This document shows, piece by piece, positions 4,496-59,735 of a stretch of DNA of 64,000 bases. The stretch's first letter is position 1, and every line of letters starts with the position of its first letter. The stretch is taken from positions 1-64,000 of the forward strand of contig QHNH01000027.1 in NCBI GenBank assembly GCA_003218375.1, in the 5' to 3' direction. This DNA is from Verrucomicrobiota bacterium. Its GTDB lineage: Bacteria > Verrucomicrobiota > Verrucomicrobiia > Chthoniobacterales > UBA10450. The notes beneath the pieces were generated by a model that did not search any database, had not been told where the DNA came from, and worked only from the letters and a program-made list of their open reading frames with translations. The position numbers and the translations under genes are program-made.

Positions 4496-7039
4496 CTACT
4501 CCGTTCGCAACGCGGTCATCGGCGTGACCTTCGTCGCGCGATGGGCGGGGAAGAAGCAGGCGAGTAACGACGCGGCGGCGAGCATCAAACTCGAAGCAAG
4601 CAGCGCGAACGGATCGTTCGGGCTCACTTCGTAGAGGATCTGGGAAAGCACTCGGCCGACGGCCAGGGCGAGGAGCAATCCGAAAACAACCGCGAGCCCG
4701 GTTTGCATCGCGCCCTGGCGCATGATCAACCCGAAGACATCGCTACGATGGGCGCCGAGCGCCATGCGAATCCCGATCTCGCGCGTGCGACACGCCACGG
4801 CGTAAGCTTTCACGCCATACACGCCGACCACGGCGAGGAGCAATGCGATCCCGCCGAAGACGCCAAAGAGCACCGCGCCCAACCGCACGATCCAGAGGCC
4901 CACACTTTTCTCGACGAGATCGGTAAAGGGCGCGATGCCGAGAACGGGCAGATCGGGATCGACCGTGCGCAGCATCTGGCGCACGCTCGGGATCATCGCG
5001 GCGACAGCGCGCCGGTCTTTGCTCGCGATCCGGACATGCAGATAAACGTTGCCGCTGTATCCCTGCGCCAGGGGCACGAATAACCGGCGCAATACCGTGT
5101 CGTTCTGCACGTCGTGGCGATGCGTGCTCACCACGCCCACCACTTCGAGGTCGTTAGGCGAACCGTCTCGCGGCGCCTGGGTGTAACGGACATGCTGACC
5201 GACCGCGTCCGTGTTCGGAAAAAGTTTCTTCGCCATCTGCTCATCGATGATGGCGACCCGCGGCGTCTCTTTGTTCTCCGCCTCGGCTTGGGTGAAATCC
5301 CGGCCGCGCAGGAGTCGCACGCCAACCGCATCGAAATAGCCTGGGGTGATCGCGGTGAAGAGACCGCTCGCTCCGGGGTCCGGCGCTTTCGGGTCGGTCG
5401 GCATCGTTTCGCGGGCCGACATGATCCGGCGCGTGTTCGTGAAATTGCCGTAAGGCAACATCGTTCCGAGCGCCGCCGCCTGCACGCCAGGCAGCTCACG
5501 CGCGCGCTGCACCGCGGTGAACATCAAATGCTTCGATTCCGCCGGCTCTTTTTTCACGAGCGAGAAATCCATTTCCGTGACGAGATCGCCTGCCGCGACG
5601 AATCCGGGATCGAGTCCGCCCGCCTTCATGGCGCCGCGGAAAAATAATCCGGCGGCGAAAAGCAGCATGAGCGACAAGGCAATCTGCGCCATGACCGAGA
5701 TGTGGCGCGGCGCGAAGAACCGGCTAAGCCGCCCGACGCGCGCCGGCTCGCCGACCTGTTGTTTCAAGTCGTTCACCAGATCGGCCTTCGTTGCTTTCAA
5801 GGCGGGGAGGAGACTGAAGAGCAACGTCGCGAGCAGACAGAAGAAGAACGTGACCGAAAGAACGGTCGGGCTCGGGCTCAGGTCGGCGACGAAGGAAAAA
5901 TTCAATGAGCCGAGCATCCGGCCGAGCGAATGGAGCAGCAGATTGTTGCACCAAACGCTGACGACGAGTCCAACCGCGCCGCCCACGATGGCGAGGAGCA
6001 TGCCTTCGCTCAACAACTGTCGCACGATGCGCCAGCGCGATGCGCCCAGCGCGATCCGAAGCGCGATCTCTTTCGCGCGGGTGGTGCCGCGCGCCAGCAA
6101 CATGTTCGCGAGATTAAGGCTCGCGATCAGCAGCACCGCGCCGGCCATGGCCATGAGGAGCGTCGCGATCAAGGCGATCGGGCCATCGTCTTCCGGCGAC
6201 GTGCTTAGGCTGAAGCGGGACGGCGTTTGGATTTGCAACTCGCGCGCGAAATCGGCGTCCGGCGGCTGGAGCGCGTTGAATCGCTGGCTCAACACTGGTA
6301 GCCGCGACTTCGCCATTTCAATCGTTAGGCCGGAGCGCAGGCGCGCAGTGAGATTGAGCGTGTAATTTTTCGGCTGCGACAAATCCGTCGCCATATCGGA
6401 ATCGCCGAAGGCCGAGCCGAGCCGCGAATACATCCCGAGCGGCACCCAGATATCGGGCGCGATCAGCGCGCTCACCCCGCTAAAACCGTCCGGCGAGATC
6501 CCGATCACGGTGTAAGGCTGGCTGTTGATCTGGAGCGCGCTGCCGACAAAATCCTCGCGGCCACCCTGGCGTTTCCAGAAACCGTAGCTCGCCACCACCA
6601 CCGCAATGTTCGCGTTCGGCCGGCATTCCTCCGCGTTGTAGAACCGGCCCCGGAACGGCTGGACGCCCATCATCGAGAAAAAGTTTTCCGAGGTGAGGAA
6701 GGCAAAACTGCGCCGCATCTCGTGCTCGCTCCCGATCCCCGCCACCGCGAATTCGAGCGCCGCCATATCGGCGAACACTTCCTTCCCGTTCTCGCGCAGC
6801 TCACGAAACTCCGTAAACGAAAACTGCCGGTAATCGTGGTTCGCGCTTTGCCGCGCCGTGAAAACATTGACCACTTCCTGCGGCCGGACTGGAACCATCG
6901 GCCGCAACACCACCCCGTTGATGAGCGCGAAGATCGCCGAGTTCACCCCGATGGCGAGCGCGAGCGTGATCACCGCCACGATCGTGAACCCTGGCGACTT
7001 GATGAGCTGCCGAAACGCAAAACGAAAATCCTGGATCAT
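4496..7039 (-). CDS. FtsX/MacB-family permease of the orphan duplicated (ADOP) type
   Basis: An 847-residue inner-membrane protein made of two MacB-like periplasmic domains, each followed by FtsX-type membrane helices. It starts MIQDFRFAFRQLIKSPGFT, the typical opening of duplicated permeases described first in Acidobacteria. A helix at about 20-40 is followed by the first extracellular domain. Helices around 290-430 carry LANMLLARGTTRAKEIALRI, and the C-terminal copy carries TREIGIRMALGAHRSDVFGL. Length matches the family (about 800-880). No ATPase gene is adjacent, as usual for this class. Proteins of this kind probably couple ATP hydrolysis by a distant MacB-like ATPase to envelope transport; the substrate is unknown. 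Confidence 0.88.
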   Translation of the reverse strand: MIQDFRFAFRQLIKSPGFTIVAVITLALAIGVNSAIFALINGVVLRPMVPVRPQEVVNVFTARQSANHDYRQFSFTEFRELRENGKEVFADMAALEFAVAGIGSEHEMRRSFAFLTSENFFSMMGVQPFRGRFYNAEECRPNANIAVVVASYGFWKRQGGREDFVGSALQINSQPYTVIGISPDGFSGVSALIAPDIWVPLGMYSRLGSAFGDSDMATDLSQPKNYTLNLTARLRSGLTIEMAKSRLPVLSQRFNALQPPDADFARELQIQTPSRFSLSTSPEDDGPIALIATLLMAMAGAVLLIASLNLANMLLARGTTRAKEIALRIALGASRWRIVRQLLSEGMLLAIVGGAVGLVVSVWCNNLLLHSLGRMLGSLNFSFVADLSPSPTVLSVTFFFCLLATLLFSLLPALKATKADLVNDLKQQVGEPARVGRLSRFFAPRHISVMAQIALSLMLLFAAGLFFRGAMKAGGLDPGFVAAGDLVTEMDFSLVKKEPAESKHLMFTAVQRARELPGVQAAALGTMLPYGNFTNTRRIMSARETMPTDPKAPDPGASGLFTAITPGYFDAVGVRLLRGRDFTQAEAENKETPRVAIIDEQMAKKLFPNTDAVGQHVRYTQAPRDGSPNDLEVVGVVSTHRHDVQNDTVLRRLFVPLAQGYSGNVYLHVRIASKDRRAVAAMIPSVRQMLRTVDPDLPVLGIAPFTDLVEKSVGLWIVRLGAVLFGVFGGIALLLAVVGVYGVKAYAVACRTREIGIRMALGAHRSDVFGLIMRQGAMQTGLAVVFGLLLALAVGRVLSQILYEVSPNDPFALLASSLMLAAASLLACFFPAHRATKVTPMTALRTE

Positions 7040-7186: not shown

Positions 7187-9817
7187 TTATTTCGCCGACG
7201 GCGAGGGCGGGAGAAAGGCTTCGCCGCCGGGGATGCGTTTCAGGTCCCAGAGCTTGGCGGTGCCGTCGGCGCTGCCGGTGGTGAAGTTCGTGCCGCTGGG
7301 TGAGAACCTGAGCGACAAAAGGGCGTCGCGATGACCGCGGAGAATGGCGACACATTTCCTGGTTTCGTAATTCCAGAGCCGCGCGGTGTTATCGAAGCTC
7401 ACGGTCACCACGCCCGGACCGTAGAGCGTAAACCGCGCGGAGAAAACGGCCGCTTCGTGACCCGTCAGAGTGACGACGCCTTGCCGCGTTTGCGCATCCC
7501 AGACTTGCGCGGTCTTATCGTCGCTCGCGGTTACGAAGCGAGTGCCGCCGGGCTGAAACCCCACATCGCGCACCGCGTCCTGGTGCTTTACCTGACAGAG
7601 CCGTTCCCCGGTCTGCCGGTCCCAAAGGATCGCGTAGCCGTCGGCGCCCGCGGTCACGATCCAGCGCGCTTGCGAGTCCATCGCCACGCGGCGAACGGGC
7701 GCGCCGTGCCGGAGCACTTCGCTGTCCTCGGGTTTGTTCTTGCTGAATCTGGCTTTCTCGCCTGTCGGCAAAATCCAGAGCCGGGCCGTGCCGTCGGCAC
7801 TCGGCGTGACGAGCCAGGTTTTCTCCGGGGTTTCCACGAGGTCGGGGATCCAAACACTGTCGGTGTGGCCTTCGAGGAACATCACCGCGTTATGCGTCGC
7901 ATTTTCGACATTCCAAATCCCGACCTTCCCGTCGCGGCTGGTGGTGGCGAGCCAGTTTCCGTCCCGGGTCCAGGCGAGACCGGTCACCTGCTTTTTGTGT
8001 CCGATCAGGTAAAACGGATTCGCCGGTTCGGACGCTTTCCAGAGCGCGGCCTTGTTATCGTCGCTCGCGGTAGCGGCAAACCAGGCGTTCGGGTCCCAGC
8101 CGGGCTTGGGATTCAGGAGCGCGAAATTCACTTCGCTGCGATGACCAGTGAGCGGGAAATCTTTTTTGCCGACCAGGTCCCAAACACGCGCGGTGTGGTC
8201 CTGCCCGGCGGTGATTAGCGTGTTAACTCGCTGCCCATTCAACGGCCCGTAGCGGACGTGCCAGATCGAGCCCTTATGTCCAGAGAAAGTCTTGTCGGTC
8301 TTGTACTCGACCGCGTCTGAGGAATCGGCTTCGGGCAATGTCGACAATTTGGTTACCGGCGCCGGGGTCGGAGCGGGAAGATATTCCATGTCGCCGCCTT
8401 CTTTTCTATCGACCGATTCGAGCGCTTTTTGCTCGAGGAGTATTTTTTGTTCGTCTTTTTCCTTCCGTTCGTCGTTGAGTTTTTCCTGCACCTCACGGTT
8501 CCGATCGGCCAGGACGTAAACGATCGCTCCCACGATCGCCAGGAGGATGGCGAGGGCGATGCTGATGCGTTTCCGCCATCTGCGCATGGTGGCGCGGGCG
8601 TCGCTCAAGGCGCGCTGGCGCCGGATCCACGGAACGAGGAACTCGCTCGTGATGTCGTAAAAATAGGCTTCGTTACGCCGTTGTTTCCGGACGAGCCGCG
8701 ACCGGTCGGTGAGTTCGGCGAGCGCGCATTTGCCAATCGTTGGCGGAATCTTTTCCCCGGACTGGAGCCGCTCGAGCAGGTCGGATTCGAGGATGATGTT
8801 TCGCGTCCCGGCGCTGGTGACGAGATGGCGAAGAATAGCGATAGCCGGCTCGCGCAGTCCGGAGCTGAGGCGATCGAGCGAGCCGGTGAGATGGCCCTCG
8901 AGAAGTCGCTGCACGACTTCGGCGCGGTTCGGCGTGGCGTCGAACAGCGACTCCGCTTTGGGATCGCGCCAGAGCGAAAGGGCTGCAATCTGCACTTCGG
9001 TGAGATTGATGGCGCCGCTCTCGCTCCGTTCTTCGAGCGCGGCGCAGAGCTTGTTCGCTAGCTCGTCGGAAATAACGCGCCCGAAATGTTCCGGCGGAAT
9101 CTCGCCCATGAACGGCCCGCGGATCAGTTTTTTCAGGACGCTGGAATCCGGAAACGTCAGGCGGACATGCTGGTCGCGCAGGTTCGGGACGAGGGCGAAG
9201 AGCCTGGAAAGTTTCGCCAGGTAATCTTCCCGAAAAACGAAAAGCAATTTCACCGGCAGCGTTTCGTCGCGGAGAAGATCGGCCAGGAAATTGAGAAGCG
9301 TGCTCTGCGCCTGGGCGGCCTCGGCGAATTTTTCCCGGTTCTCGGGCGCTTCCTCAAACAGGGTCACGAATTCCTCGAACTGGTCGAAGATGAGGAGAGG
9401 AGCGCCGCCCGCGTGCTCGAGACCGAGCCGCGCGTGGATGTCCTTCGTCGAGAAGACGAGCCGCGTCCTGGATTCATCGTCGGCCGCAAGACGCGATGGC
9501 AAAAACGGCGCGGTGCCTTCGTCGGTGAGTGCGAGCCGTTCCACCACCAGCTCGGCGCCGGGCACCGGCTGGACGCGCAATCGTTCCGGGAGAAATCCTT
9601 CGTCGAGCATGGCGGGAATGAACCCGGCGTTGATCACGGAAGATTTTCCCACGCCCGATTCACCGTAGAGCAGCGTCCCGCGATAAATTGAGACCAGGCG
9701 AATGAGCCGCCGGGTTTCATCGCGCCGCTCGAAAAAGATCGGGCGATCGATGAAACGGAATTGCTCGATCCCGCGATAGGGCTCGCGCGGCCAGACGAGT
9801 TTGGGCAGCGTGATCAT
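7187..9817 (-). CDS. STAND NTPase with one membrane helix and a WD40 propeller
   Basis: An 876-residue protein in three parts. Residues about 1-410 are a STAND-type P-loop ATPase: Walker A GESGVGKSS (52-60), Walker B LLIFDQFEEF (141-150), and LLFVFREDYLAKL (191-203) as in the nSTAND1 family. Residues about 418-437 form a hydrophobic helix (ISIALAILLAIVGAIVYVL), followed by a charged linker. From about 508 there are eight WD-type repeats, most showing a GH near the start and a D..A.[LV]W end (for example HTARVWDL, NTARLWNY, GTAKLWDL). It overlaps the SIR2-like gene upstream by 4 bp (ATGA), so the two are translationally coupled. Known STAND proteins act as signal-sensing oligomerising switches. 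A membrane-anchored sensor for the SIR2 effector is inferred, not shown. Confidence 0.88.
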   Translation of the reverse strand: MITLPKLVWPREPYRGIEQFRFIDRPIFFERRDETRRLIRLVSIYRGTLLYGESGVGKSSVINAGFIPAMLDEGFLPERLRVQPVPGAELVVERLALTDEGTAPFLPSRLAADDESRTRLVFSTKDIHARLGLEHAGGAPLLIFDQFEEFVTLFEEAPENREKFAEAAQAQSTLLNFLADLLRDETLPVKLLFVFREDYLAKLSRLFALVPNLRDQHVRLTFPDSSVLKKLIRGPFMGEIPPEHFGRVISDELANKLCAALEERSESGAINLTEVQIAALSLWRDPKAESLFDATPNRAEVVQRLLEGHLTGSLDRLSSGLREPAIAILRHLVTSAGTRNIILESDLLERLQSGEKIPPTIGKCALAELTDRSRLVRKQRRNEAYFYDITSEFLVPWIRRQRALSDARATMRRWRKRISIALAILLAIVGAIVYVLADRNREVQEKLNDERKEKDEQKILLEQKALESVDRKEGGDMEYLPAPTPAPVTKLSTLPEADSSDAVEYKTDKTFSGHKGSIWHVRYGPLNGQRVNTLITAGQDHTARVWDLVGKKDFPLTGHRSEVNFALLNPKPGWDPNAWFAATASDDNKAALWKASEPANPFYLIGHKKQVTGLAWTRDGNWLATTSRDGKVGIWNVENATHNAVMFLEGHTDSVWIPDLVETPEKTWLVTPSADGTARLWILPTGEKARFSKNKPEDSEVLRHGAPVRRVAMDSQARWIVTAGADGYAILWDRQTGERLCQVKHQDAVRDVGFQPGGTRFVTASDDKTAQVWDAQTRQGVVTLTGHEAAVFSARFTLYGPGVVTVSFDNTARLWNYETRKCVAILRGHRDALLSLRFSPSGTNFTTGSADGTAKLWDLKRIPGGEAFLPPSPSAK

Positions 9818-10695
9818 ACCGGCATCGGCGTTTTCTTGATCAACTCGTAGAGCGCCGGCACGAACGACCAGACATCCTGCATGACGAAGCGGACGTAACG
9901 GCGCTGGTCGCTCCAGTAACGGACGATGAGCTGGTCCGGCTTGGGGTCGATCGAATAGGTCTCGGGAAAGAGCGCGGGATCGAGGTTCACCCGCATCGCT
10001 TTGAAAAGCAGGCGCAGATTGTAATCGATCAGGCTGTAACCGATGAAGAGCGTCGGCCAGCGTTTGAAACGGTAGAGGAAAGTTTCCGGCACCGGGTGGA
10101 ACGGCGCCTTGTCGCTCATCCGCAGGACGAACTGGATGTAATCCTCATCCGTCAACACGGCCGAGTCCGGCACATCGATGTCGCCATGAAGTTTGCACAC
10201 GAACGGATTCAGCGGCGTGGGATCGTCCGTCGGATCTTCGGTGGGATTTTTCGCGGACGGGCTGTAGACGCAGAGCTGCGGATCTTTGCCGGCGGCGCGC
10301 AGGCTTTGCTCGAAGAGCTGATCGTAGTTCGTCGTCATGACGAGTGGGAAATCGAGCGCGGCCAGGGCGTGTACGACGGGTGACGCGATCTTGTTCGCGT
10401 GCACTTCCTCCTTGATCCGCTTCATCAGGCGATTGCGCGAAAGGGTGTCTTCGTAATGCCACGCCACGCGTTTGAGGTCGCCTACGTCCCAGCCCGGGAA
10501 TCGTTTCAGGTATTCGCTCTCATCGGCGAGCGTGACCGAAAGTGCGCGACCCAGCGGCGGCCGGCGCTCCTCCGGATAAGCGTCGAGATATTTCTGGTCC
10601 ACGCCGGCCGGCGGCCCGTAATGAACGCCGGCGCCGAGGAACAAAATGCATTGCCCTTTGCCCACGGCTTCAGCGATCGCGGCAAGATCGTCCAT
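9814..10695 (-). CDS. SIR2-like domain protein, probable NAD-consuming effector
   Basis: A 293-residue protein with the hallmarks of the SIR2-like family found in anti-phage systems. These are a nucleotide-binding LFLGAG (19-23), TTNYDQLFE (121-129), the catalytic-type KLHGD with His at 170, and LFIGYSLIDYNLRLL near 215-230. It lacks the zinc-binding cysteine module of protein-deacetylating sirtuins, which favours NAD hydrolysis over deacetylation (inference from family knowledge). It is the first gene of a two-gene unit; its TGA overlaps the ATG of the STAND/WD40 gene. The gene lies immediately downstream of an integron-cassette cluster on the same strand, so acquisition with accessory DNA is plausible. 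Confidence 0.85.
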   Translation of the reverse strand: MDDLAAIAEAVGKGQCILFLGAGVHYGPPAGVDQKYLDAYPEERRPPLGRALSVTLADESEYLKRFPGWDVGDLKRVAWHYEDTLSRNRLMKRIKEEVHANKIASPVVHALAALDFPLVMTTNYDQLFEQSLRAAGKDPQLCVYSPSAKNPTEDPTDDPTPLNPFVCKLHGDIDVPDSAVLTDEDYIQFVLRMSDKAPFHPVPETFLYRFKRWPTLFIGYSLIDYNLRLLFKAMRVNLDPALFPETYSIDPKPDQLIVRYWSDQRRYVRFVMQDVWSFVPALYELIKKTPMPV

Positions 10696-10823: not shown

Positions 10824-11267
10824 TTACTTCTCGGACGTAGTAATCGTGTAAGAGAAATCGGCGGCGGGAGTGATCGTGAACGTGGCTTTCGCCTCGGGAA
10901 CGCGGCGCTCGGCGGCGATCACGATATCCCAGCGCTTTCCCCGAAGCACAAATTTCTGCGACACCACCCGCCATCTCCCGTCAATTTCTTTGATGGGCAC
11001 CGTGCGTTCGATGATCGACTCCTGCCTGTCGTGATCCATCCGGATCCACTGAAGAAACGCGCGGCTGGAAAGCTCCTCCCAGCCGACGAGCTGGATGACG
11101 AGACGGAACGAGCCCTCCTGTTTGTCGCGCGTCCAGTAACCGCCTGAAGCTACCGTTTCAATCTGCGGCGGCAACGCTTCCGCCTTCGCCGCCAGCTGCG
11201 GGTCCTCCCGACTCTGAGCCAGTAAAGCGCACGGCAATAGGAGGAGAAACCAACCAGCGATTTTCAT
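10824..11267 (-). CDS. small exported protein carried as a cassette
   Basis: A 147-residue protein with a signal peptide (MKIAGWFLLLLPCALLAQS, likely cleaved after LAQ). The mature domain is beta-rich with no recognised motif. Its start codon lies only 4 bp beyond the R' end of the attC site at 11271-11394, the normal position for an integron-cassette gene. No attC follows its stop, so this is the last, attC-less cassette of the minus-strand array or the junction with ordinary chromosome. The 128 bp between it and the SIR2-like gene show no recognisable feature. Function unknown. Confidence 0.6.
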   Translation of the reverse strand: MKIAGWFLLLLPCALLAQSREDPQLAAKAEALPPQIETVASGGYWTRDKQEGSFRLVIQLVGWEELSSRAFLQWIRMDHDRQESIIERTVPIKEIDGRWRVVSQKFVLRGKRWDIVIAAERRVPEAKATFTITPAADFSYTITTSEK

Positions 11268-11270
11268 TAC

Positions 11271-11394
11271 ATCTAATGAGACGCAAGATCAGCGACGGCC
11301 ACCGGGAGCGAGCGCTGCCACGATTAACTGATAACTAATAACAATTATCTCGCGCATACGCGCGTCAGCCGTTCGCTGGATCGTGTGGTTAGGC
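11271..11394 (-). other. attC recombination site A (124 nt)
   Basis: Read on the minus strand it starts with R'' GCCTAAC (11394-11388) and ends with R' ATTAGAT (11277-11271). The inner arms are CAGCGAACGGC (L'') and GCCGTCGCTG (L'). They are complementary except for one extra A, the extrahelical base expected in attC hairpins. The stop codon of the upstream GIY-YIG gene overlaps R'', and the next gene starts just after R'. The first base of R' is A rather than the usual G. The central part shares a nearly identical 33-nt stretch with site G at 59613-59735. Confidence 0.85.
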
Positions 11395-11819
11395 CACGTT
11401 CGTTGCATTGCCGGTACCGTTGAGTAAGTGAACGCGGTCTCTGACGCCGGAGATGATGAACTCCTCCAGCGCTGGAACCAACGCTCTCGTCCGGGGATCG
11501 GAAAACGCGATGGCGGCGATGGCCTCGATGATGAACGGCTCGCCGGAAAGGTCGTTCATGCGGTAGATGTCGGTGGCGCGGTGCGGATTGAGGTGCGCCC
11601 AGAGCCGATTGCCGATGTTGCTGAGTGACGCCTTGCCGATGTAGGCGCCGAGCCGCTTCGGATCGTTCTCGTGATGGGCGCAGAGAATATAGACGCCCGG
11701 GCCATCCTTGCATGGCCACACCTGGTCGTCCCATGGGACGTTGGCGATGACTGAACACGATTCGGAGTTGGAGGCGTTCAGCGCTCGCGAAAGATGGGTT
11801 CGTATTTGTCGAGAGACAT
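11389..11819 (-). CDS. GIY-YIG-type nuclease domain protein, apparent one-base frameshift
   Basis: The reading frame ending at 11389 encodes GPGVYILCAH, then GAYIGKASLSNIGNRLWAHL and finally PALEEFIISGVRDR. These match the GIY, YIG, Arg and Glu elements of the GIY-YIG nuclease fold. The frame has no convincing start of its own. An ATG at 11819, 17 bp after the zinc-ribbon gene, encodes MSLDKYEPIFRER and then hits a stop at about 11780. Restoring one C there (CGCGAGCG-CTGAAC) joins it smoothly to LNASNSESCS of the GIY-YIG frame. The gene is therefore either recently broken or carries a sequencing error. Its TAA stop lies inside R'' of attC site A, marking it as a cassette gene. Confidence 0.6.
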
Positions 11820-11836
11820 GTCCGTGGAATGATGCG

Positions 11837-12061
11837 TTACGAAACCCACTGATGCCCACTGCCTCTGGAGCACTTGCCGATAGTGGGATGGGAGTTGGTG
11901 GACATGCCTGTGCCGCACTTGATGCACTTGTATTGTTTGCGGCTGCCGTCATCAATAACCCACTCGTGGCCGCCGCCTTCGGAGCAGCGGCCGATAGTCG
12001 GATGCGAAGATGCGGAAATACCGGTGCCGCATTTGATGCACTTGTATTTGGTGTTGGGCAT
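11837..12061 (-). CDS. tandem-repeat zinc-ribbon protein
   Basis: A 74-residue protein made of two near-identical units. Each has YKCIKCGTG, then S..SHPTIG, a further cysteine in GRCSEGGGH or GKCSRGSGH, and a closing WV. Each unit supplies CxxC plus later Cys and His ligands, as in a small zinc ribbon. The start ATG at 12061 lies 35 bp after R' of attC site B, and the GIY-YIG gene follows 17 bp later. The two therefore share one cassette and may act together, for example in nucleic-acid recognition and cutting (inference). A longer frame (12126 to 11389) through this region reads the attC and is not real at its 5' end. Confidence 0.6.
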   Translation of the reverse strand: MPNTKYKCIKCGTGISASSHPTIGRCSEGGGHEWVIDDGSRKQYKCIKCGTGMSTNSHPTIGKCSRGSGHQWVS

Positions 12062-12095
12062 TGTGGTGGTTGGGTTACGAGGCGCTCGTGTAGTG

Positions 12096-12216
12096 GCCTA
12101 ACGAGAACAAGATGAGCGACGGCCACCGAGAGCGCGCGTTGCTTTCATTTCATCCGTCATGATTCATCCGCCTTGATCCACTGCGGGTGGCCGTTCGCTC
12201 CATCGCATGGTTAGGC
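12096..12216 (-). other. attC recombination site B (121 nt)
   Basis: On the minus strand R'' is GCCTAAC (12216-12210) and R' is GTTAGGC (12102-12096). L'' GAGCGAACGGCC pairs with L' GGCCGTCGCTC apart from one unpaired A, the classic extrahelical base. It separates the exported-protein cassette (12224-12742) from the zinc-ribbon/GIY-YIG cassette. R' and R'' fit the RYYYAAC/GTTRRRY consensus perfectly. Confidence 0.9.
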
Positions 12217-12223
12217 CTTTGGG

Positions 12224-12742
12224 TCATTTCGGTGGAAGGGGTGAGGTACGAGTGACTGATCCGTCTGGCTTCTCATCGCCACCGAAGTTCATTTGCGGTC
12301 GTTTCTCATTGAAACCCGGAAGCCGAAAGAGCAAGCGATCGTCGGCGAGTTCCCCGCCACGCTTCCACTCACGATAATGCTCGTCGGCAAGCAAACAGGG
12401 CACACCGCGATATGTAATGAGATGCCATTTGCGGTCGTAGTACTTTCCCGGGCCGCGAAGTTCGATCGCGTCGGCATTTACAACCACTCGGCCGCGAAGC
12501 GGGTAATTAGGTACTTTCTGAGTGTGTGTCGTAGTGCGTCCGTTGATCGTCATCGTGATGGTGGAGGGGCCAACGTCGCTGTAAAACCAATATTTGTAGT
12601 GGTCGCCTTGGATCTTCAGAGCGATACCCATGTAGCCAGTCCACCGACCGGAGAGAACCCAAGCACCGTCAACGTCGGGACGCGCTGCAGCGAACGGGGC
12701 ACTGGCCAAGAAAATCAGCGCAAAGGTCAGCAGGAATCGCAT
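12224..12742 (-). CDS. small exported protein carried as a cassette
   Basis: A 172-residue protein beginning MRFLLTFALIFLASAPFAAA, a clear signal peptide. The ATG at 12742 lies 3 bp after R' of attC site C; an upstream in-frame ATG at 12775 would translate the attC itself and is rejected. The mature part looks like a compact beta-rich domain (GAWVLSGRWTGYMGIALKI, then YKYWFYSDVG and others). It contains a single Cys and no recognised catalytic motif. The gene is followed within 10 bp by R'' of site B. It is probably a periplasmic or secreted cassette protein of unknown role. Confidence 0.6.
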   Translation of the reverse strand: MRFLLTFALIFLASAPFAAARPDVDGAWVLSGRWTGYMGIALKIQGDHYKYWFYSDVGPSTITMTINGRTTTHTQKVPNYPLRGRVVVNADAIELRGPGKYYDRKWHLITYRGVPCLLADEHYREWKRGGELADDRLLFRLPGFNEKRPQMNFGGDEKPDGSVTRTSPLPPK

Positions 12743-12744
12743 AG

Positions 12745-12867
12745 GCCTAACGAGAATAAGATGAGCGACGGGCACCGAAGGCGCGCGCGGCTTGCAGGGG
12801 AAGGGTGGAAGCGAGAGCGAGCGTGGGCACAGAACGGGTGCCCGTTCGCTCCATCGCTTGGTTAGAT
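12745..12867 (-). other. attC recombination site C (123 nt)
   Basis: On the minus strand R'' is ATCTAAC (12867-12861) and R' is GTTAGGC (12751-12745). L'' GAGCGAACGGGC pairs with L' GCCCGTCGCTC with a single extra A. Length and sequence match sites A and B closely, as expected for an array built by one integrase lineage. Confidence 0.9.
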
Positions 12868-13004: not shown

Positions 13005-13115
13005 CTAGTGAGGGACATAATGCGAGAGCCAGAAATGCCGCATGATCAACGACAAGAGGATCGCAATGACGAATACCGTCAGAGGCCAAATCGGAGAGCT
13101 GAGTCCTCGCCTCAT
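13005..13115 (-). CDS. 36-residue single-helix membrane protein in a cassette
   Basis: A very short gene starting at 13115, 3 bp after the R' box at 13119-13125. The product starts MRRGLSSPIWPLTVFVIA and continues ILLSLIMRHFWL. This gives a positively charged N terminus and one membrane helix of about 20 residues. The remaining 137 bp of this cassette up to site C contains nothing else recognisable. The start-codon position directly behind R' and the coherent membrane-helix profile support it. Such tiny membrane proteins in cassettes can be toxins or stress peptides, but that is only a possibility. Confidence 0.45.
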   Translation of the reverse strand: MRRGLSSPIWPLTVFVIAILLSLIMRHFWLSHYVPH

Positions 13116-13118
13116 ACC

Positions 13119-13125
13119 ATCTAAC
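13119..13125 (-). other. attC right half (R' box), head of the minus-strand array
   Basis: Reading the minus strand, CATCTAATTCTCGTTAGAT ends in a GTTAGAT R' box. It closely resembles the L'-R' end of site C (CATCTTATTCTCGTTAGGC), but no matching R''/L'' half is visible upstream; an AT-rich hairpin (TTCGCCTTTAAAGACGAA) lies there instead. The site is therefore truncated and marks the upstream end of the array. The same sequence around this box recurs at the head of the other array near 56277. Confidence 0.6.
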
Positions 13126-13216
13126 GAGAATTAGATGAAAGTTCGTCTTTAAAGGCGAATATTTTTTCGTCTATCACGGTGCTACCTGCTTCGAGATTCG
13201 TTGTGGTAGCAGATCG

Positions 13217-55951: not shown

Positions 55952-56286
55952 CCGTCGCGAGCGAACACTCGCACTGCCTGTGACGCGGTCGCGGCCATCA
56001 AGTGCCGCGAGCGCTTCCTACTTTCGATTTTCGATTTTTGATCGCCTTCTACTTTCCACTTCCTACTTTCGGTTTCGGACCTCCGACTTCCGATCGCCGA
56101 CCTCTGAACTCTACCTCGACGTCCGGATCGCGTCCCAGACTCGGTCCAGCAGTTTCGGATTGCGCGGCGCGGCCTGGGGGGATAGTTTCATTTACCTCCC
56201 CATGCTGACACCCGCCCCGTCGAACCTCAAGCTGATTAGACCCCAAAAATGCGCCTTTAAAGGCCCAATTATTGGGCCTAATTCTC
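55952..56286. other. gene-free stretch leading into the plus-strand cassette array
   Basis: About 335 bp without a supported gene. A CTTTCGATTTTCGATTTTTG and CCTACTTTCG-type simple repeat (about 56020-56110) is followed by unstructured DNA. Then come two hairpins next to the array head: GCCTTTAAAGGC and GGCCCAATTATTGGGCC. Confidence 0.6.
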
Positions 56287-56293
56287 GTTAGAT
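56287..56293 (+). other. attC right half (R' box), head of the plus-strand array
   Basis: GTTAGAT preceded by CTAATTCTC. The stretch 56276-56297 is almost the same as the reverse strand at the head of the other array (around 13119-13125, 21 nt shared). No matching R''/L'' is visible upstream, so this is a truncated attC or specialised array boundary. Confidence 0.55.
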
Positions 56294-56680
56294 GGTATCG
56301 TCGCTTCCACGGCTCGCGCGATCAGTCCTGATCCTGTTCGCAGTTTGCTTCCTTGGAGCTTGCGCCGTTCACGTCTTCGATCTGTGGCGGCACGGTTGGT
56401 TGCCTTACCACTTGCGCCGTTGGCGCTCAACGCCTACTGGACCGCCCTCACGTTTCTCGATGCGCTCGCTGCGGTCCTGTTGCTTTGGCAGCCGCGCATT
56501 GGGCTCGCCTTGGCTATCCTCATCATCACATCTGACGTGACGCTCAATCTCTTCGCCCAGTTCTACCTTCGCTTGCATCTCCGGTCAGATGCTTTGTCGT
56601 TGCAGTTTCTCTTTTGTGTCGCTGTCCTTGCGGCCACGTTTTATGCTCGACGCACGGGAGCAGCCACGCCAACCATCTAA
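56292..56680 (+). pseudogene. cassette gene for a small membrane protein, one-base deletion
   Basis: Frame 1 starts at 56292, directly after R'. It reads MVSSLPRLARSVLILFAVCF, then HVFDLWRHGWLPYH. After CACTT the protein continues in the next frame as APLALNAYWTALTFLDALAA and later DVTLNLFAQFYLRL, ending at TAA 56680 inside R'' of the next attC. Inserting one C restores HFAPL and a single polytopic membrane protein of about 129 residues. Recent decay or sequence error are both possible. Confidence 0.5.
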
Positions 56681-56686
56681 CCATGC

Positions 56687-56694
56687 GATCCAGC
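56687..56694 (+). repeat. 8-bp target-site duplication, left copy
   Basis: GATCCAGC immediately left of the IS end; the identical GATCCAGC occurs at 58696-58703. The eight-base length is typical for IS1595-family elements. Confidence 0.93.
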
Positions 56695-56764
56695 GGCAAT
56701 AATATCTTTGACTGACCGTAAGGTCAGTGGGAATCTTGGCCGTGACAGGGCGGACAATCACGGC

Positions 56765-56920
56765 TTAATCGCGCGGCTTAGTTGCCACCGTGCGCGGTTG
56801 TGGTGGCGTTTTTATCATCCGCCTAACGAGCGATTCGAACCGCTTGGCGGCGGCAGTGCCGGAACGGGCGTCCTTCGCAAGCCGTTCAAGCGTTTCCTCG
56901 CGCGTTTCGTGTTTCTTCAT
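56765..56920 (-). CDS. 51-residue passenger peptide of the IS
   Basis: A short basic protein starting MKKHETREETLERLAKDARS and continuing GTAAAKRFESLVRRMIK, mostly helical. The ATG lies 15 bp beyond the stop of the 242-residue gene on the same strand, and the reading frame is well inside the IS. Codon use and coherent amphipathic pattern suggest it is real; no function is known. Confidence 0.45.
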   Translation of the reverse strand: MKKHETREETLERLAKDARSGTAAAKRFESLVRRMIKTPPQPRTVATKPRD

Positions 56921-56935
56921 GGTTCAGTTCACCAT

Positions 56936-57664
56936 CTAGTGCGTGCTGTTGTGAAACGAAGTCTGTTTGAAGTCTTGTACCGCCGGATCGTACAGCGCGC
57001 AAAACTTCATGGTCTGCTCCTCCTTCGGCAATTCGTGACTGTAGTAATGAACCACGCCGTAAACATAAACAAAAAGTTTCTTGTCCACGATTTTTGCAAT
57101 GGCATCAGCAGTCAAGGGTGGCCCGCCCAACGCAGTCATTTTGATTGCCAGTCCGGCAGGAATCATTGTTTTAACCGGCGGGCTGTCGCGGGAAAGCGGC
57201 GGCGGGTCACTGGTCAACTTCTCTGTCCGCGTAATCAACGCGCTTTCCTGTTCAACGTCGATTGCATCCGACTTGCCTAAGTTTTGTATGATCATTGTTC
57301 CACTAAGTTGTTGTCCAGGAACGAGGCTGCCTAATGACACGCCAGTTAAAAATAAGGATGGACGATTAGCCTGCGGAGCATCCTTCTTCCACTCCCTGTC
57401 CTGCAACCAGCAGCAACCCGTTAACACGGCGAACAGAATGGCCGTGCCGCTTGTCCAAATACATAGTGACCTATGACCAAGAGCACCGAACATGCCCGCA
57501 ATAATCGTGGCTATGAGGCAAAGAGAACCCGCAATGTACACAATCGTTTCCATCCAGCTCCTTACGTGATGACTGGTCGCGAGTTGGCTACCGGGCTTAC
57601 TATTTTTTTTGTCATTGGAGTCGGAATTGGCGCGTTTGCTTTCGCGATACTTTCTTCTTTTCAC
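56936..57664 (-). CDS. membrane protein of unknown function carried by the IS
   Basis: A 242-residue protein that starts 27 bp after the transposase stop. The first 37 residues are very basic (MKRRKYRESKRANS and on). Two membrane helices follow (TIVYIAGSLCLIATIIAGMF and LCIWTSGTAILFAVLTGCCW). A 120-residue soluble domain contains GTMIIQNLGKSDAIDVEQ, a pattern seen in beta-sandwich domains. An internal ATG near the first helix is an alternative start. As a passenger gene it is transcribed with the transposase. Confidence 0.6.
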   Translation of the reverse strand: MKRRKYRESKRANSDSNDKKNSKPGSQLATSHHVRSWMETIVYIAGSLCLIATIIAGMFGALGHRSLCIWTSGTAILFAVLTGCCWLQDREWKKDAPQANRPSLFLTGVSLGSLVPGQQLSGTMIIQNLGKSDAIDVEQESALITRTEKLTSDPPPLSRDSPPVKTMIPAGLAIKMTALGGPPLTADAIAKIVDKKLFVYVYGVVHYYSHELPKEEQTMKFCALYDPAVQDFKQTSFHNSTH

Positions 57665-57691
57665 TAGATGCTACGCTGTCTGCCACGTCTC

Positions 57692-58648
57692 TTACGCCGG
57701 ACAAGGGCCATCACCGCCCTCTGCCGCAATGAGCTTCGCATATCGCAATCCTTTGCCGACAACGCCACTGAGCGCCTTAATAAAGCGCCCTTGGTCGTTG
57801 TCTTTGCGCTCGTTGAATCGGAAAGCTTGCTCATCGCAATACCGGAACAAATGAAACGGTTCGACATTCACATATGTCCCCTTGAGGGAGCGTTTCAAAA
57901 GCGACCAGAAGTTTTCCAGCCCGTTCGTATGGACTTGGCCCTTGGCGTAGCACTCCAAATGGTCAATCACTTGGCGGTCGTAATCCTTTTCAAGATCGTC
58001 ATAGGACATGAGCGCATCCGTGTTCACGGTCGAGCCTGCTTCGACGTGCTGGCGAACGTTGCCGCAAAGCTCGGGTCTGCGGGTATTCGGAACCACCTTC
58101 AACACGATACGCGAGAGAGTTTCGCCCTCTGTGCGTTGCAGGATGCCTTGCACGGGGGTTTTCTTAATGCCAGCGTCTCCAACACCCGTGCGGCGATTCT
58201 TGTGCATGTAGCGAGCCTTTGCGCCGATGTAGGTCTCATCAGCTTCACACGTCCCGCTCATTTTGCCGCCGAAACCTTGCTGCATGGCGAGCCGGATACG
58301 TTGCAGCATGAACCATGCGGTTTTCTGAGTCACGCCAAGCGCGCGATGCAGTTCGTAAGAGCTAACGCCGTTTTTGCAGTTCGACGCGAGCCACATTGCC
58401 GGAAGCCACTTATCCAAACCAATCGGGGAATCTTCAAAGATTGTTCCAACCTTGGCCGAAAACTTTTGCTTCGGGTGAGGCGTGCGGCATTTCCAGACCT
58501 TCGCGTTTTCAAGGAACGTCACCTTGTCGGAATTGCAGCGCGGGCAACGCACTCCTTTAGGCCAGCGAATCTGTTTAAAGAACTCAAAAGCGTTCTCGGG
58601 ATTGCTGAAATACGTTACCGCTTCCAAGAGGGTTTCCGGTGCTTGCAT
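57692..58648 (-). CDS. IS1595-family transposase
   Basis: A 318-residue DDE-type transposase. An N-terminal zinc ribbon (KGVRCPRCNSDKV, then WKCRTPHPKQKFS) is followed by TIFEDSPIGLDKWLPAMWL. The catalytic core includes GTCEADETYIGAKA (first Asp), VNTDALMSYD (second Asp) and VHTNGLENFWSLLKRSLKGTY (terminal Asn-Glu motif). The order CxxC, DE, D, NxE is diagnostic for the IS1595/ISXO2 group. Its start lies 47 bp inside the right end of the element. Confidence 0.95.
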   Translation of the reverse strand: MQAPETLLEAVTYFSNPENAFEFFKQIRWPKGVRCPRCNSDKVTFLENAKVWKCRTPHPKQKFSAKVGTIFEDSPIGLDKWLPAMWLASNCKNGVSSYELHRALGVTQKTAWFMLQRIRLAMQQGFGGKMSGTCEADETYIGAKARYMHKNRRTGVGDAGIKKTPVQGILQRTEGETLSRIVLKVVPNTRRPELCGNVRQHVEAGSTVNTDALMSYDDLEKDYDRQVIDHLECYAKGQVHTNGLENFWSLLKRSLKGTYVNVEPFHLFRYCDEQAFRFNERKDNDQGRFIKALSGVVGKGLRYAKLIAAEGGDGPCPA

Positions 58649-58695
58649 ACGGGGAGAATACCAGCATGAAACGGTCTGTCAAGTATATTATTGCC

Positions 58696-58703
58696 GATCC
58701 AGC
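58696..58703 (+). repeat. 8-bp target-site duplication, right copy
   Basis: GATCCAGC right after the IS end, identical to 56687-56694; it continues as GAACGGGC, the native attC L'' sequence. Confidence 0.93.
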
Positions 58704-58801
58704 GAACGGGCTGGCAGCTTTGATTCCTCACTTTCCATGAAATTCCACCCTCAACCCGCAGCGATGCGCCCTCTCGCCAGCCGTCGCTGATCTTGTTGAT
58801 T

Positions 58802-58999
58802 CACTCGCGCGACTCGTTCAACCTGCGGTCTTAAAGTCTATGTCACGGCTTGCCAGTCCGTTCCATTGTAGCCCTCTGCCCCACTACCCGAAAGTCCGGT
58901 CTCGTTAGACGCAGATGACCACGTTCGCTATAAGGCGCAGTCTCGTTTGATGTTCCGGAGTAACTGTGCGCGACGGACAATAGAGTAAAATGGAGCCGC
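58802..58999. other. 198-bp stretch between site F and the DUF3592 gene
   Basis: Without a supported gene. It contains one further R'-like box GTTAGAC (58904-58910, inside CCGGTCTCGTTAGACGC) with no visible partner half, suggesting the remnant of another attC. Confidence 0.4.
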
Positions 59000-59494
59000 A
59001 TGAGTCACTTCTTTGTTCGCCTTCCGAATGAGCCCTCGCCTGCGGATGGCGGCGCACTCAAGAGACGGCTCGCGCAGGCACTGGTAGCGACGCCAGGGAT
59101 CATCCTGTTGCTCCTCGCTCTGCACGGGGTTGTCGCGGATTATCGCCACATGCAAGATGTGAGTCGGCGCGCGGAGGCGCGAACGGCGCTAGCAGAGGCC
59201 ACGATTGTCGAGACGCACGGCCTGGTCTCCGGGAAAGGTCTTCGTATCGCGGAAGGAGCCGGAACGTTCAGCTTCACCACTGTTTCCGGCCAGGAGGTGC
59301 GGGTTCCATATCGAGGCTTCAGCGGCAGCCTTGGCACGAAGCTTCCCGTCCGCTACGATCCTCGCAACCCTGAGAACTGCGCCCTGGGAGACAACCGGTG
59401 GGGGTTTTCCGACCTTCTCGGTAACGCGCCTTTTTTCCTCATGGGCCTATGTTTTCTGTTCTTGGCAATGAAGCTGGGACGCCGGAATCCGTGA
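59000..59494 (+). CDS. DUF3592-type membrane protein carried as a cassette
   Basis: A 164-residue protein with two membrane helices (LVATPGIILLLLALHGVVA and LLGNAPFFLMGLCFLFLAMK). The extracytoplasmic domain between them contains FTTVSGQEVRVPY and LPVRYDPRNPENCAL, the DUF3592 signature (VxYxPxNP). The family's function is unknown. It is followed by attC site G and belongs to the plus-strand cassette array. Confidence 0.75.
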   Translation: MSHFFVRLPNEPSPADGGALKRRLAQALVATPGIILLLLALHGVVADYRHMQDVSRRAEARTALAEATIVETHGLVSGKGLRIAEGAGTFSFTTVSGQEVRVPYRGFSGSLGTKLPVRYDPRNPENCALGDNRWGFSDLLGNAPFFLMGLCFLFLAMKLGRRNP

Positions 59495-59612
59495 GCACCG
59501 GATCTGGGCAGTTGGTGGATTCGGGATCACAAGTTGTTTCGACGTGGTGGCAGTTTTTTCGCTCTCGGCATCGCAAGCATTCGATGTAGTATGCAACTCG
59601 TGCAGCTCCAAC

Positions 59613-59735
59613 GTCTAACCAGGCGATGCAGCGAACCGCTGGCGCGCGCGTGCGCGAGTTAATTGTTATTAGTTACCAGTTAATCGTGGCAGAGTTTGCT
59701 GTCACCAGCCGTGGCTGAGATTGAGCTCGTTAGGC
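59613..59735 (+). other. attC recombination site G (123 nt)
   Basis: R'' is GTCTAAC (59613-59619) and R' is GTTAGGC (59729-59735). Inner arms are CAGCGAACCGCTGG and CCAGCCGTGGCTG. The centre holds a TTAATTGTTATTAGTTACCA stretch continuing AGTTAATCGTGGCAG, which is almost identical to site A (11271-11394) on the other strand. The acetyltransferase gene starts 8 bp after R'. Confidence 0.92.

Follow-up and report, generated by a model that had tools for sequence, protein, structure and literature searches.

What kind of element lies between positions 11271 and 12216 of the window (the whole 64,000-nucleotide stretch of Verrucomicrobiota DNA analysed here), and does its nuclease gene still give rise to a protein? 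The initial annotation had called the zinc-ribbon and nuclease genes found here a cassette without recognising any integron character, and the word turns out to be literally true, as the pair sits between two attC sites. As an integron gene cassette the region belongs to an ordinary class of elements; what is unusual is the pair of genes it carries, one of which is broken.

The integron array and its leader

Sites of the attC type were sought with a detector built for this analysis around the R box consensus. It gave 8 rows in the window (5 sites, both strands counted), compared to a mean of 2.2 per shuffled 64 kb over five block shuffles; the sites are 11271-11394, 12096-12216, 12745-12867, 59613-59735 and 6287-6359, the last being probably a chance match. 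Repeats at 11271, 12095 and 12744 and at 11362, 12184 and 12835 are the two halves of the first three of these, all on the minus strand, with complementary R''/R' and L''/L' boxes 3' of the cassette genes. The site closing cassette 1 (12745-12867) was recognised from the repeat, from pattern and detector matches and from its fold, while in the site closing cassette 2 (12096-12216) the R'' and R' boxes are complementary at 7 of 7 positions and both are paired in the fold. The site closing cassette 3 (11271-11394) has a degenerate R' box (ATTAGAT, which does not begin with G) and the weakest fold, and all three hairpins are only modestly above shuffled sequence (z of -1.1, -1.9 and -1.7 for the sites at 11271, 12096 and 12745). 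The direction of the genes follows from the extra L'' base of the attC sites, as judged by eye.

With its edges taken from the R' boxes, that of cassette 2 being its left edge, cassette 3 spans 825 bp (11277-12101, minus strand). The array comprises three attC sites and five open reading frames, all on the minus strand and two of them in cassette 3, and the stop codon of the nuclease gene falls within the R'' box of the attC site at 11271-11394. Cassette 1 encodes 36 amino acids (13005-13115) with, by eye, a single membrane segment; cassette 2 encodes 172 amino acids (12224-12742) with a signal-peptide-like start by eye, and a Pfam scan of the 183 residues read from an upstream GTG gave no match. 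Beyond the last attC lies a frame of 147 amino acids (10824-11267, minus strand, signal-peptide-like by eye), after which the detector finds no attC and which is perhaps a fourth cassette that has lost its site. No sigma-70-type promoter was found by scanning the region (1.1 expected by chance), intrinsic-terminator scanning of it gave 2 sites (2.4 expected by chance), and neither the cassette DNA nor the ribbon protein matched the plasmid collection.

The array is headed by an attI-like leader (13121-13157, minus strand), a palindrome centred on TTTAAA beside an R-type box (CTAACGAGAATTAG on the plus strand). Its hairpin and T run (13141-13160, plus strand) scan as an intrinsic terminator facing opposite to the cassette direction. 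Across the 3.96 Mb genome there are 39 matches to the attC-end pattern at up to 3 mismatches (1 to the reversed control) and 8 to a gapped leader pattern (control 0), the latter also occurring once each in 4 of the 7 other genomes of the genus. A looser leader pattern, run on stretches chosen for their attC matches, added two more, giving ten leader-headed arrays (two each on contigs C2 and C21, and one each on C19, C25, C32, C40, C42 and C52). All ten leaders have attC ends in the same orientation on the cassette side, the nearest 256-478 nt away (up to 4 mismatches), whereas the opposite side, as far as the examined stretch reaches, has none. For the four leaders elsewhere in the genus, attC ends lie near two (L111 and L114), with none in the 3 kb examined for the others (L110 and L112). 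In their attC sites, gene orientation, stop codon inside attC and lack of an integrase at the array, these elements resemble integron cassettes and CALINs. CALINs, however, are clusters of attC sites without an integrase that are not normally defined by an attI-like leader, whereas ten arrays here have one each (eight attC-bearing stretches, L047, L051, L052, L053, L055, L056, L061 and L062, had none by the patterns used), and cassette 3, unlike the usual cassette, carries two genes.

No integrase was found at this array, and no full-length integron integrase in the genome, where the search yielded one fragment and two frames that look XerC/D-like by eye; the integrase model also matched in 14 of 14 control genomes and gave no matches above the cut-off in the 8 genomes of the genus. 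As only integrase fragments remain, the arrays appear to be frozen, and this one is probably no longer moved by its own integrase, with the proviso that the assembly is 97.8% complete and so an integrase could be missing from it. Integrase scraps are found some 70 nt from the leaders on C32 and at 56252-56291 of the window, and in the sister genome G214 two leaders stand directly before degraded integrase genes (L151 and L165). Stop-free long integrase matches occur in sister species (L149, L150 and L152), with no leader in the stretch examined. At a further locus, L163 (contig C4 of G099), an integrase remnant on the minus strand lies on the cassette side of the leader, unlike the usual integron layout. 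The term “attI-like” thus goes by position. The window holds a second array on the plus strand (56123-59735), comprising a 19-residue integrase scrap (56123-56179), the leader at 56252-56291, a degenerate attC end near 56677 and the attC site at 59613-59735.

The two genes of cassette 3 and their relatives

The first gene (11837-12061, minus strand) was described by the initial annotation as a double zinc ribbon of 74 residues, which is borne out by the open reading frame from 12061 to 11837 and by the identity of its two repeats at 23 of 31 residues. In a six-row alignment (A1), C8, C11, C26 and H32 and the corresponding C46, C49, C64 and H70 are invariant, P21 and W34 and likewise P59 and W72 are kept, and the window protein is 32-35% identical to the other members. 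It shares with its double-ribbon relatives the two C-x2-C...C...H ribbons, the conserved P and W and a length of about 74 amino acids, but lacks their LGxVG linker. Counting partial matches and its own genome, 8 of 384 genomes of the class matched the ribbon; beyond its own, both ribbons are present in five (L003-L007) and a single one in L008, and L009 showed no ribbon upon translation. A two-row query (L006 and L007) found 7 loci in the genome_contigs set, 2 of them on the query's own contigs and the other 5 labelled Bacteroidetes, Rikenellaceae, Caldisericota, Bacteroidales and Treponema; one locus has three ribbons, and in one the ribbons end a longer protein. The Treponema protein (L085, 3134-4231) carries a C-terminal double zinc ribbon on a longer sequence that is membrane-like by eye.

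The second gene is read from a frame without a start codon (11389-11781, minus strand, ending in TAA at 11391-11389) that was recognised from profile matches and codon scores. Its product, P0001, has Y30, Y46, R58, E106 and N120 in the order of the motif residues Y, Y, R, E and N of GIY-YIG nucleases. Together with P0002 (the nuclease of locus L080) and a protein from genome G124 it shows 25 invariant columns, including W-P, GVY, YIGK, R, LEEF and N-G-x-G, and going by these residues it is likely to belong to the GIY-YIG superfamily (UvrC N-domain, I-TevI; PF01541). A profile of the three proteins (A3) has as its best eight matches in the PDB the N-domains of UvrC together with the intron endonuclease 1ln0/1mk0 (E 0.008-0.05), and nanobodies follow at 0.1. 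The order of the motif residues supports the earlier assignment to the GIY-YIG type, although in Pfam both P0001 (E 0.035) and P0002 (E 0.048) fall below the cut-off. The window protein differs from other members in standing alone, in a cassette where neither a methylase nor a sensing domain was seen. P0001 and P0002 are 31% identical over 104 amino acids (E 0.12 when 12 loci were searched), and P0002 as query did not retrieve the window's gene from the 384 class genomes. Both AlphaFold models were very poor (pLDDT 34 and 39) and the fold search with them was uninformative.

Close relatives of the nuclease are scarce. The window's nuclease part matched only its own genome among the 384 class genomes, with nothing close in the plasmids, in the phages or in the PDB at E <= 1, and none of the 126 pattern stretches in genome_contigs or the 13 in viral_contigs was confirmed. 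At E <= 0.1, 16 of 387 phylum genomes matched, its own included; the strongest match outside its own genome (E 0.0017) lies inside a 635-residue frame, and in another (L065) no GIY-YIG motif is visible. The A3 profile matched 53 of the 387 genomes, two of them (its own and G124) by construction, and most of the 30 matches given loci lie in frames of about 490-600 amino acids, the size of UvrC. Searching with P0002 matched 6 of 384 class genomes with partial matches counted (the source G357, G124, G383, G160, G092 and G248), and with the L080-type nuclease as query two scans of viral_contigs gave no match. The G124 relative is intact; two others are broken, one split over frames (L105 in G383) and one an N-terminal fragment (L121 in G160).

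Comparison with known GIY-YIG systems gave partial likenesses. P0001 matches the PADLOC model PDC-S14 at E of about 1e-4 through its GIY-YIG part only; it was rejected as a full-length PDC-S14, being far shorter, with at best residues 26-122 of 129 aligning to model positions 70-152 of 320. Another A3 member matches PADLOC UzuA at 0.0013. CMoRE (PMC12923530) and SNIPE (PMC13190303) are longer single anti-phage proteins; the window nuclease has the GIY-YIG domain in common with both but lacks the C-terminal sensing domain of the former and the DUF4041 and membrane domains of the latter, and it differs from both and from PDC-S14 in having as its partner in the cassette a zinc-ribbon protein that is encoded separately. 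In Aeromonas, a class 4-like integron is reported to have a GIY-YIG cassette, orf6 (PMC10609294), which is likened to ours by its description; the term “zinc ribbon” is absent from the main text of that paper.

Pairing of ribbon and nuclease genes

The initial annotation regarded the two genes as a compact nuclease module. In another, distant Verrucomicrobium (L080) a GIY-YIG gene likewise adjoins a double-ribbon gene of this family, in reversed order and with a gap of 89 nt. Beyond the window, 10 different loci with a double ribbon (L003-L005 and L080-L086) were tested for one or two neighbours each, and 4 of them have a DNA-attacking neighbour, namely GIY-YIG in L080, GmrSD in both L081 (Pfam E 2.3e-25) and L083 (2.6e-32), and in L086 a member of the UDG superfamily (Pfam 2.7e-5, just over the cut-off). 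Pfam gave no match for the tested neighbours in L003, L004, L005, L081 (upstream), L082 and L085. The GmrSD protein of L083 matches PADLOC defence models, P0002 and the L080 ribbon gave no PADLOC match at E <= 0.01, and no clear ribbon lies near the nuclease relatives in G124 and G383. The L080 pairing and the 4 of 10 neighbours give partial support to a nuclease module, in which the two proteins may act together. Among the titles listed in a literature search on GIY-YIG proteins with integrons, defence or zinc ribbons, none concerned a ribbon and GIY-YIG pair.

The genomic surroundings include a gene for a SIR2-like protein (Pfam E 4.1e-22) that overlaps by 4 bases the gene immediately downstream, which encodes a long protein with repeats that are WD40-like by eye (together 7187-10695); these could be a defence-type pair. 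Within the genus, the RraA-like match is present in 4 of 7 genomes besides its own (over 35 residues only in G257). None of the SIR2, WD40-like and cassette genes of the window turned up in the stretches from G099, G214 and G647, and the genus comparison showed no empty insertion site.

The frame switch and its explanation

The stop codon of the ribbon gene is followed after 17 nt by an ATG at 11819, which opens 13 codons and a TGA (11778-11819, minus strand) out of frame with the nuclease frame. Codon scores were drawn from the 19 long open reading frames of the window (11,486 codons) against off-frame codons. From 11819 to 11784 the ATG frame scores +4.4 bits (compared to an in-frame mean of +3.9, and attained by 59 of 5,644 off-frame windows), the nuclease frame -10.3 and the third frame -3.5. 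From 11781 to 11724 the nuclease frame sums to +3.1 (the others to -17.0 and -4.0), and from 11721 to 11392 it reaches +37.8. As 11819-11784 thus scores as coding in another frame, the gene probably began at 11819 and was probably broken by a single-base lesion, the plainest reading of the switch. In 36-base windows starting from about 11792 to about 11768 the third frame is some 1-6 bits above the nuclease frame, which is ahead only from about 11762 onward; with the third frame leading just past the ATG frame, the switch can be located only to the interval from 11784 to about 11760. The initial annotation had proposed a start at 11819 cut off by one missing base near 11780: the out-of-frame ATG and its coding score agree with the start. 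Its figure of about 143 residues for the restored protein is arithmetically right (142-143). It had also reasoned that homologues beginning only at the GIY motif would speak against a lost 5' end, and both intact relatives (147 and 150 amino acids from the chosen Met) have 63 and 66 residues before GVY, with motifs in common there. A programmed -1 frameshift was considered and rejected as the short frame contains no slippery heptamer. The frame-switch region is present in one copy in the genome, and searches of the 384 class genomes and of the plasmid, phage, genome_contigs and viral_contigs sets brought up no second copy.

Might the nuclease nevertheless be made? Ribosomes could restart at a CTG (11781) that overlaps the TGA of the 13-codon frame, or start at a GTG (11721) just before the conserved WP, but CTG is a rare start codon, coding-like scores in the nuclease frame reach back beyond 11721, to about 11760 at least, and restarting leaves 36 nt of gene-like codon usage in the ATG frame to be explained, again with no slippery heptamer, so that we hold such expression to be improbable. 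An error in the assembly, leaving the gene intact in the organism, is rather unlikely: a 52-contig draft with a single affected site would be compatible with it, whereas the 19 long frames of the window, though picked for their length, are unbroken over their 11,486 codons, no long homopolymer is seen at the site by eye, and other decay is present in the form of the degenerate R' box and the integrase scraps.

Other explanations concern the pair rather than the lesion. Large chromosomal integrons often carry toxin-antitoxin pairs, and a small two-gene unit with the smaller gene first could be one that holds the cassette in the array; the reversed gene order and 89-nt gap in L080, and the lack of any such family among the Pfam, NCBIfam and PADLOC matches, make this a poor candidate to our minds. 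That two genes with unrelated jobs share a cassette by chance deserves some weight while still being doubtful, as the pair is known at two loci only and loss of an attC site could yield two-gene cassettes; against this, both families are rare (the ribbon in 8 and the L080-type nuclease in 6 of 384 genomes, partial matches included) and yet they are adjacent in two distant genomes.

We therefore favour, with reasonable though far from full confidence, the reading that this is cassette 3 of a small frozen integron array, carrying a ribbon gene and a frame-broken GIY-YIG gene that formed a DNA-attacking pair when intact. The nuclease gene would once have run intact from 11819 and lost its frame through a single-base change, and with that frame lost the strain would now produce nothing more than the 74-residue zinc protein and a stub of 13 residues; the nuclease itself is probably not made. 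From domain knowledge and the neighbouring genes, we infer that the intact pair would attack incoming DNA, with cutting done by the GIY-YIG domain and binding, either of nucleic acid or of the nuclease partner, by the ribbons. A wider suggestion, which is speculative and unlikely, is that the ribbon is a portable partner of unrelated DNA-attacking enzymes (GIY-YIG, GmrSD and UDG-superfamily), that the cassette is a mobile restriction-like pair, and that attI itself, of which the at least ten leader-headed arrays would then carry copies, has spread without its integrase.

What had been a vague “nuclease cassette” has become a located integron cassette in which both the gene pair and the lesion are specified. 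The frameshift is less worth following up than are the pairing and the arrays headed by leaders. Repeated attI-like leaders in a genome that yielded no integrase are relevant to the multiplication and freezing of integron arrays, and the pairing, if it is kept in more genomes, would be a small candidate defence module with an intact relative in L080.
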